DNA of 64,000 bases from an uncultured SAR86 cluster bacterium (lineage in GTDB: Bacteria; Pseudomonadota; Gammaproteobacteria; Magnimaribacterales; AG-339-G14): positions 200,618 through 264,617 of the forward strand of contig CACEVU010000002.1 of the NCBI GenBank assembly GCA_902563105.1, read 5' to 3'. This document shows positions 42,658 through 44,402 of this stretch, in pieces. The translations under genes were made by a program, and so were the position numbers. The notes under the pieces were generated by a model that ran no database searches, was not told the DNA's origin, and saw nothing but the letters and a program-made list of their open reading frames with translations. Each line of letters starts with the position of its first letter. The first letter of the stretch is position 1.

Positions 42658-42703
42658 TGGTGGGTCTGGCAGAACTCGAATCTGCGACCTCACCCTTATC
42701 AGG
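42658..42703 (-). pseudogene. tRNA-Ile 3' half, duplicated remnant
   Basis: These 46 bases are identical to bases 44326-44371, the 3' part of the intact tRNA-Ile(GAT): CCA end, acceptor strand, T arm, variable loop, the anticodon stem 3' side and the anticodon loop. Upstream the match decays (AGAGCAGACC instead of AGAGCGCACCCC) and then stops, so no D arm or 5' acceptor strand is present. It cannot make a tRNA. It looks like the distal attachment-site copy left by integration at the tRNA 3' end. Confidence 0.9.
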
Positions 42704-42743
42704 TCTGCTCTTTTTTCTTTGAGGTACGGTCGAAAAAAATTTA

Positions 42744-43280
42744 TTATTCTTCCTTTTCTTTTATTGAAGTAACCCAAAATTTAGAGTCTTTCAAAAAGAA
42801 ATAATTCCATAATTTTGATAAAGCAAAAGGTAGAATAAAAAGAATTATTAAAACAACGTAATTGATAGGTTCTGGTTCAGAATATCCATTTAGAATTTCT
42901 GTATAAAAAAAGTACGCTGCTACCCCCCAAAACAATAGACCGCCTAATAAAATGACTCTTCCAACATAGAGGTAGATATTGGAATTTTTATCAGGTCTCA
43001 AACCATATGAATATATAAATATCAATGCAGTTAAAATATTCAAAATTTGCCAAAGTCCTCTGTCATAGAGATACACAGGTAAAATAGGATTATAAAGAAT
43101 GGTTACAAGCACCATTATTATCCATATATTTTTTCCATCTTTATAAAAGCAATATGCTGCGTAAGCAGAACATAGAGATATTGCAATTCTCGTGAAAGTA
43201 TAAAATCCCACAGGAAAAGGAAAAAAAGCAACTAAAGAAATTATTGCTCCAGCAAGTAAAACGTTTGAATTCATTTTCAT
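42744..43280 (-). CDS. Multi-pass membrane protein, DUF6804-like
   Basis: A 178-residue protein with about five hydrophobic segments. The first half, with PFPVGFYTFTRIAISL, AAYCFYKDGK and LYNPILPVYL followed by W.ILNILTA, resembles the DUF6804 family of small membrane proteins of unknown function. The second half (residues 100-160) adds two more helices and a charged tail ending KEKEE. It lies nearest the tRNA remnant inside the island. No function is known; the assignment is from remembered pattern, not a search. Confidence 0.7.
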   Translation of the reverse strand: MKMNSNVLLAGAIISLVAFFPFPVGFYTFTRIAISLCSAYAAYCFYKDGKNIWIIMVLVTILYNPILPVYLYDRGLWQILNILTALIFIYSYGLRPDKNSNIYLYVGRVILLGGLLFWGVAAYFFYTEILNGYSEPEPINYVVLIILFILPFALSKLWNYFFLKDSKFWVTSIKEKEE

Positions 43281-43368
43281 AGATTGACCTTTAAAAAAAT
43301 TTCTTGATCCTTTTTATAAGTTTTTTCCTTTTTAATCTTTCTTGTCAATTAATTAAAAGGTACTACTT

Positions 43369-43773
43369 TTAATTTGGTTTTCTAATTCCTTGAAGTCTTT
43401 CTAAAAATGTGGGTTCTCTGTATGCAGCACAATATGAAGGTCTTGTGCCTGTGACCGAATAACTTCCCGAAAAAAAGGGTAAAGATAGGAATGCGCTATG
43501 CCAAGCATTCCTTGTTGTACCTGACATAAAACCTCCGCCTGTTCCAATAGAACTTAATGAATATTCCTTTCCATTTGCGAAAACATTTACTCCATTAATA
43601 GATTTATCTACATAATATCTAAATGTGAGTTGTTCTCCATCCCACCTTCCATCTTTTGCCTTAAGAGTAATATCTGATCTGCTCTGACAATCTACGCATA
43701 GTTCATGGTAGCAACTTGAATATGAATTCAGACTAACCAAAAAAATAAATAAAAATACCGATATTTTTTTCAC
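43369..43773 (-). CDS. Small secreted cysteine-containing protein, island cargo
   Basis: A 134-residue protein with a signal peptide (about residues 1-19, ending LNSYSS) and a mature part with CYHELCVDC, WDGEQLTFRYYVDK, GTGGGFMSGTTRNAWHS and one more cysteine (SYCAAY). The four cysteines could form two disulfides in the periplasm. No family recognised. The start codon is GTG. A possible weak AT-rich hairpin (43352-43373) overlaps its stop codon. Confidence 0.62.
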   Translation of the reverse strand: MKKISVFLFIFLVSLNSYSSCYHELCVDCQSRSDITLKAKDGRWDGEQLTFRYYVDKSINGVNVFANGKEYSLSSIGTGGGFMSGTTRNAWHSAFLSLPFFSGSYSVTGTRPSYCAAYREPTFLERLQGIRKPN

Positions 43774-43839
43774 AAGTTTACTTTACCAAATCCATTATTA
43801 GATTCAAATTTCTATCAAATTTGTCATTTTAAAAAGGTT

Positions 43840-44178
43840 TTATTTCATGAAATTTATAGTTTGTTTAACAGCAGTTTTTACAGAAACAGTTGGAGACTTT
43901 TCACAAAAATATCTAAAATTTTTACCTAATTGATTTGCCCATTCGGTAGGGTTAACTCCACTGTTTGCTGCTCTTTTTAAAAACCCTTTATCAACTAAAA
44001 AAAATATTTTCACTTGAGCAGTACCCCACTCAGATTCATTTTTTGACATTAAATACCACTCGGAATATTTACCTGGACAAGGTTCGTCTAAATCTTTGTA
44101 TGTTATTAAATCAGCAACTCTCAAGTTATTAGCAAAAGAAATTGAAGCAAATAAAAGTACAAATAGATAATATTTCAT
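43840..44178 (-). CDS. Small secreted protein, island cargo
   Basis: A 112-residue protein with a signal peptide (about residues 1-16, ending SISFA). The mature part begins NNLRVADLITY, has two cysteines (C34, and one in RYFCEKSP) and KIFFLVDKGFLKRAANSG; two cysteines could form one disulfide. It resembles no family I can name. It is the first island gene after tRNA-Ile, and its upstream region (44179-44290) contains a 7-bp palindrome and a tandem repeat that may control it. Confidence 0.62.
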   Translation of the reverse strand: MKYYLFVLLFASISFANNLRVADLITYKDLDEPCPGKYSEWYLMSKNESEWGTAQVKIFFLVDKGFLKRAANSGVNPTEWANQLGKNFRYFCEKSPTVSVKTAVKQTINFMK

Positions 44179-44234
44179 ACTAATAGATTAGCAGTCTTCC
44201 TTAGAAAAGAAATCAATATGAAACAGTTTTTATG

Positions 44235-44267
44235 CACAGTAATTTCTACTGTGTATAACTGTGTATA
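44235..44267. repeat. Palindrome plus tandem 10-base repeat upstream of island gene
   Basis: CACAGTA-N5-TACTGTG (44235-44253) overlaps two exact copies of ACTGTGTATA (44248-44257 and 44258-44267). The ACTGTG core thus occurs three times, once inverted, within 33 bases, about 60 bases before the first island gene. This is what an operator with several half-sites for a repressor looks like. It is not a LexA box: the required CTGT-N8-ACAG spacing is absent. Confidence 0.6.
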
Positions 44268-44290
44268 TTTTTTTATTATCTCTGAAAATT

Positions 44291-44324
44291 AAAAAACCCT
44301 TAAAACATTCATATTTAAGGGTTT
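44291..44324 (-). terminator. Rho-independent terminator after tRNA-Ile
   Basis: A perfect 11-bp stem AAACCCTTAAA/TTTAAGGGTTT (44294-44304, 44314-44324) with a 9-base loop begins two bases after the tRNA-Ile CCA. On the minus strand the stem runs directly into six T residues. It ends tRNA-Ile transcription, keeping the tRNA separate from the island genes. The remnant copy at 42658 has no such terminator. Confidence 0.88.
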
Positions 44325-44325
44325 C

Positions 44326-44402
44326 TGGTGGGTCTGGCAGAACTCGAATCTGCGACCTCACCCTTATCAGGGGTGCGCTCTAACCAGCTGAGCTACAGAC
44401 CC
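44326..44402 (-). tRNA. tRNA-Ile (GAT anticodon)
   Basis: A 77-base cloverleaf with acceptor GGGTCTG/CAGACCC, encoded CCA, and anticodon loop CTGATAA giving GAT. It is a single gene and not in an rRNA spacer, where tRNA-Ile(GAT) usually lies. Its 3' 46 bases are repeated at 42658. Divergent from the SDR gene. Confidence 0.97.

Follow-up and report, generated by a model that had tools for sequence, protein, structure and literature searches.

We examined a small unit at tRNA-Ile(GAT) in a 64,000-nt stretch of DNA from an uncultured SAR86 cluster bacterium (the window, i.e., the whole stretch analysed). The unit lies between conserved sulfatase and short-chain dehydrogenase genes and is bordered by two direct copies of the 3' end of the tRNA. 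The features of the locus are listed below with their window coordinates.

40933-42579, minus strand: left neighbour, conserved; sulfatase (Pfam PF00884)
42609-42630, minus strand: likely native terminator of tRNA-Ile, now outside the unit (stem-loop; similar ones seen by eye at the empty sites of relatives)
42658-42703, minus strand: repeat copy 2, the displaced original tRNA 3' end, joined to the native sulfatase flank (exact match, and comparison with locus L048)
42704-42743, no strand assigned: attachment-site arm past the anticodon loop, where tRNA identity ends, TCTGCTCT vs GGTGCGCT (54-nt imperfect repeat)
42744-43280, minus strand: cargo gene 1, a 178-aa membrane protein with DUF6804 (Pfam PF20619, E 3.8e-17)
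43369-43773, minus strand: cargo gene 2, 134 aa, GTG start, signal peptide predicted by eye, orphan
43840-44178, minus strand: cargo gene 3, 112 aa, signal peptide predicted by eye, orphan
44290-44326, minus strand: intrinsic terminator of tRNA-Ile supplied by the insert (13-bp stem, -13.5 kcal/mol, z -3.6)
44326-44371, minus strand: repeat copy 1, the attachment-site core, which begins with the CCA and ends at the 5' edge of the anticodon loop (exact 46-bp match)
44326-44402, minus strand: intact tRNA-Ile(GAT), the attachment gene (ARAGORN; Rfam RF00005, 72.1 bits)
44518-45510, plus strand: right neighbour, conserved; short-chain dehydrogenase (Pfam PF00106)

An exact-match scan of the window bore out the initial annotation, which had noted that the 46-bp 3' end of tRNA-Ile(GAT) recurs identically and in the same orientation: the 46-mer is present in exactly two copies (42658-42703 and 44326-44371), with 0 copies expected in 100 shuffles. 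The copies are spaced by 1668 bp, and the match continues imperfectly to 54 nt at 94% (42658-42711). The whole source genome (1.2 Mb) contains 34 intact tRNAs and one degenerate copy, that at 42658-42703 (Rfam tRNA); the 3' part of the intact tRNA-Ile(GAT) is the part regenerated by the insertion. The G+C content of the insert is 29.6%, vs 35.5% for its flanks. The tRNA terminator had been placed inside the unit, and this is real, the hairpin at 44290-44326 (13-bp stem-loop, z -3.6) standing directly 3' of the tRNA CCA; because the insert brings its own terminator, expression of tRNA-Ile is probably preserved. The AAGGGTTT adjoining the CCA is an insert-end motif common to the inserts and is, at least partly, one half of the terminator stem. 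Weak Rfam matches to "HPnc0260" fell below the gathering score and were taken as chance in AT-rich DNA. The sulfatase (40933-42579) occurs within the genus in two allele classes, with about 91-96% and 73-74% protein identity to that of the window, a pattern suggesting that the gene has been replaced through recombination.

All three ORFs of the unit are on the tRNA strand, and its described content (1668 bases holding three small genes, one of them DUF6804) agrees with the ORFs and with Pfam (E 3.8e-17). Beyond DUF6804 the cargo had no Pfam, PADLOC or NCBIfam match, leaving the suggestion of a defence or competition module without support for the window cargo; other cargo at the tRNA-Ile hotspot is defence-like. 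Vertical inheritance of the genes, which the initial annotation had set against insertion, is itself refuted by their distribution: genes 2 and 3 have no family match and no relative among 203 genomes of the order, and gene 1 has distant relatives in only 4 of the 203, two of them with stop codons. The two interrupted relatives (G110:C10:24776-25081 and G081:C14:10346-10576), with no tRNA in the fetched flanks, are apparently decaying copies. Searches of viral contigs and phage records with the cargo proteins found no relatives, nor did a search of the named genome contigs with cargo gene 1, the only cargo gene used there; the cargo had no PHROG match below E 0.16. The unit itself matched nothing in the phage records except a tRNA, and it contains neither fragments of phage or conjugation genes nor the phage-hijacking or packaging genes of a phage satellite. 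AlphaFold models for genes 2 and 3 were discarded as poor (mean pLDDT 41 and 60), as was a fold search with gene 3, in which nothing was significant. Judging by their membrane and signal-peptide character, we would guess at an envelope or secreted function for the three proteins.

The initial annotation had proposed looking for a single tRNA-Ile joined to the sulfatase upstream region, and such an empty site is present at 12 loci in 11 congeneric genomes. At these loci the sulfatase is 66-82 bp from tRNA-Ile and no second tRNA-Ile copy was found at any of the 12; the corresponding distance in the window is 1747 bp, from which subtraction of 1668 leaves 79. The left flank of one empty locus, L048, is nearly identical to that of the window up to the tRNA. 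The MAG containing L048 (G005) has two tRNA-Ile loci (contigs C1 and C3; L034 and L048), whose ilvC proteins are 96% and 36% identical to that of the window; this MAG probably combines two strains or organisms. Three other congeners have different DNA at the site: G004 has about 80 bp, G013 a UDG-like gene and G011 a gene for a 607-aa GmrSD protein. In sister genera the same site is occupied by a DndB/DGQHR gene in G031 and by a gene for a purple acid phosphatase in G021, G022, G037 and G038. Cassettes are thus variably present or absent at a fixed place (the 12 empty loci, three other inserts in the genus, and more in the family). No displaced copy was detected for most of the other inserts at tRNA-Ile.

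Where displaced copies were found, they stopped at the same place in six SAR86 genomes from across the order, i.e., that of the window (G000) and five others. Measured from the CCA, the match extends for 46 bp in G000, 45 in G038, 50 in G128, 47 in G157 and 48 in G155, each copy being compared with its own tRNA or with the tRNA type of its group; the copy in G161 extends for 45 bp with two internal mismatches. Base 45 from the CCA is the last base of the 7-bp anticodon loop, TTATCAG. The chance of a stop range so narrow (45-50 bp) is 0.0005, if copies are detected from 43 bp upwards and can reach the full 77, in a count that leaves out the older, degenerate tRNA-like fragments of G152; these form a pair, one of which stops at 35 bp, and fit the pattern poorly. 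Anticodon-loop crossovers are standard for tDNA islands (PMC4383910, PMC8371274): about half of the catalogued islands use this loop (PMC4383910), and a 7-bp loop plus its stem match the overlap and core of tyrosine-integrase sites (PMC8371274). One and the same left flank occurs in three states within genus g19: it is unoccupied in G159, carries a one-gene island of 600 bp in G157 and a 3.6-kb island in G161. The last of these (L188) carries cytochrome c and COX1-family genes resembling norC and norB, along with a universal-stress-like gene. The 10.5-kb G128 island (L186 3190-13745) has no integrase; among its genes are GmrSD, an RNase_H_2/Cas4-like nuclease, Exo_endo_phos and NT5C. The left and right arms of the different islands have little in common beyond the tRNA core.

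No integrase or excision gene was found in the window unit, nor any integrase, by Pfam or by ORF inspection, in the islands of G000, G038, G128, G157 and G161 (0.6-10.5 kb). The claim of integration at a tRNA 3' end without an integrase is in this way supported by the repeat, the empty sites and the integrase-free ORFs. Each of the 16 genomes of the genus has at most two tyrosine recombinases (299 aa and 306-316 aa), which from their size and near-universal presence are taken to be XerC and XerD. The tRNA-Ile contains GGTGCGC, as does the E. coli dif site; action of XerC/XerD on tRNA-Ile was rejected, the repeat stopping on the wrong side of GGTGCGC for a dif-type crossover. A non-Xer integrase was not present beside tRNA-Ile at the 12 loci examined, and the extra (non-Xer) integrases located in the SAR86 order were at guaA, near other tRNAs, or in fetched stretches with no tRNA. 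Elements at the guaA end (L110 in G033 and L109 in G016) combine a 411-438-aa tyrosine integrase with a 202-203-aa serine resolvase, and that of L110 also carries a UDG-like gene, like the cargo of G013. An integrase-bearing relative element at tRNA-Ile was not found in SAR86, the only such element found being a marine provirus. At the edge of this provirus (L194, 4568-5691), a displaced tRNA-Ile copy with the same stop lies 78 bp from the gene for a 331-aa Phage_integrase; a scan of viral contigs for the exact f1-type attachment core found none, and only a degenerate pattern yielded L194.

The island in G038 (AG-914-M02, L134) keeps a 45-bp displaced copy, followed by 32 bp that look like the arm of an earlier insert and one half of a terminator. 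Between the AAGGGTTT microhomology (8 bp, on the left side) and the tRNA, the island is about 99.8% identical to genus g2; the change to native sequence falls within the tRNA, past which identity to g2 drops sharply to about 65%. The g2-like stretch consists of the phosphatase cassette and the tail of the g2 neighbour gene (L059 7382-9265 vs L062/L063, G021/G022), and the tRNA-Ile is 100% identical between the two genera. A match of this kind, falling away at the tRNA, shows that tRNA-anchored recombination also moves cargo between genera, and very recently. The present G038 cargo thus arrived by a different route, so that such recombination is at work as well and could have brought the window cargo. 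The repeat copies of the window are identical, while fourfold sites in the flanking dehydrogenase gene differ by 42-50% from those of relatives, and the probability that an unselected 46-bp copy stays unchanged at 0.1 substitutions per site is 1%; from this comparison, the window insertion is probably younger than the species split.

Given the footprint, the empty site, the recurrent stop, and the absence of an integrase from the unit and of a non-core one from the genus, we consider it very likely that the unit is a small genomic island with no integrase of its own, CIME-like or a cassette of the additive flexible-island type, and of tyrosine-integrase origin at a tRNA-Ile hotspot. The action of an integrase is read from the footprint, as neither an integrase or excision gene nor a circle junction was found, and we infer the tyrosine integrase of a passing phage or element, which would then have been lost or have acted in trans. 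Such an enzyme would recombine the attachment site of the unit with tRNA-Ile(GAT) at the 7-bp anticodon loop, regenerating the tRNA at one end and leaving the displaced 46-bp original 3' end beside the sulfatase; with tRNA-Ile as a hotspot, cargo would turn over by further integration and by tRNA-anchored recombination. The decay route within this explanation, to which we give not quite an even chance, is that a larger prophage or integrative element stood at tRNA-Ile and that an internal deletion removed its integrase along with most of its other genes, leaving both ends and the three genes. SAR86 genomes are small, and loss of excess DNA is expected of them. Provirus L194 has the same footprint with an integrase at the far-end position, and deletion is the accepted origin of CIMEs (PMC5704250). 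A remnant sits less well with a unit that holds no phage or conjugation gene fragments and with a 10.5-kb G128 island that likewise has no integrase (Pfam); and since the repeat copies are identical despite the 42-50% fourfold divergence, any loss must have been quick.

The unit may instead move as a distinct mini-element, with attachment sites on which the integrase of another phage or element acts (a hitchhiker, or satellite-like), which we regard as rather unlikely. The absence of an integrase from every repeat-flanked SAR86 island inspected at tRNA-Ile, from 0.6 to 10.5 kb, the restriction of the genus to two core recombinases, and the small tRNA-targeted cassettes of marine streamlined bacteria (PMC7771536, PMC10872708) are consistent with mobilisation in trans; however, the three genes occur together in no second genome, neither a circle nor a helper element was seen, and the island arms are alike in little except the tRNA core. 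An improbable source for the window unit is imported linear DNA joined by homology in tRNA-Ile and, on the opposite side, by end joining or microhomology, with part of the tRNA copied. This is the kind of event to which the G038 phosphatase and neighbour-gene tail point, with their 8-bp microhomology and a tRNA-Ile identical in both genera, but it would not account for the shared stop of the six displaced copies at the anticodon-loop end (chance 0.0005). That the three genes are ancestral, and that the second tRNA 3' end arose by tandem duplication in place or by faulty assembly, is scarcely credible; this view has the repeat itself in its favour and nothing more, whereas relatives without the genes have a single tRNA copy at the joined site, and in AG-914-M02 (L134), which was assembled independently, the architecture is the same and the cargo different. 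Both versions were already refuted by the empty sites.

The locus provides a clean single-nucleotide example of accessory-gene gain in an abundant, uncultured, streamlined ocean bacterium, and tRNA-Ile(GAT) emerges as a site of repeated integration in SAR86, a hotspot that would escape island finders based on integrases. Among its cargo are phosphatase, DndB/DGQHR, restriction-like (GmrSD) and putative nitric-oxide-reductase genes. A bolder and distinctly doubtful proposal is that SAR86 tRNA-Ile(GAT) serves as a shared docking site for integrase-free mini-cassettes, some of a single gene, that circulate between genera by means of borrowed phage or element integrases; if true, gene exchange in a streamlined clade would run without resident mobile-element machinery.

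Among known systems, Prochlorococcus tycheposons (described in PMC10872708) are likewise tRNA-bordered cargo elements of marine streamlined bacteria, but they span 4-200 kb and carry a tyrosine recombinase, whereas the SAR86 unit is 1.7 kb with no recombinase. Islander-type tDNA islands of the anticodon-loop class (PMC4383910) share with it a regenerated tRNA, a correctly oriented displaced fragment and an anticodon-centred crossover; the type requires an integrase gene within the island, which the SAR86 unit lacks. The unit also resembles CIMEs (PMC5704250) and the Dehalococcoides ssrA islands without an integration module (PMC3146451), having attL/attR-like ends (the 46-bp repeats, which appear to keep an attachment-site end at both borders) and three ORFs with no integrase or transfer-gene families. 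Descent from ICEs or IMEs is part of the definition of CIMEs, which arise from them by deletion and are mobilised by accretion (PMC5704250), and no such ancestor or neighbour is visible at the SAR86 unit. The additive flexible islands with tRNA-targeted cassettes of Ca. Actinomarinales (PMC7771536), Methylophilaceae (fGI-2; PMC10872708) and Alteromonas (PMC4119200) likewise have a tRNA as target, small present/absent cassettes, cargo mostly of little-known function, and, where insertion is recent, a far border at which the tRNA 3' end recurs as a direct repeat, as found here; Actinomarinales also uses tRNA-Ile (PMC7771536). The repeats in Methylophilaceae are 20 bp of tRNA-Lys (PMC10872708), whereas that of the SAR86 unit is 46 bp and ends at the anticodon loop, and unlike the additive islands described in other clades the SAR86 unit measures just 1.7 kb and occupies a site with a single cassette. 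In kind, the unit matches both the additive flexible-island cassettes of other streamlined aquatic bacteria (PMC7771536, PMC10872708, PMC4119200) and the CIMEs (PMC5704250).
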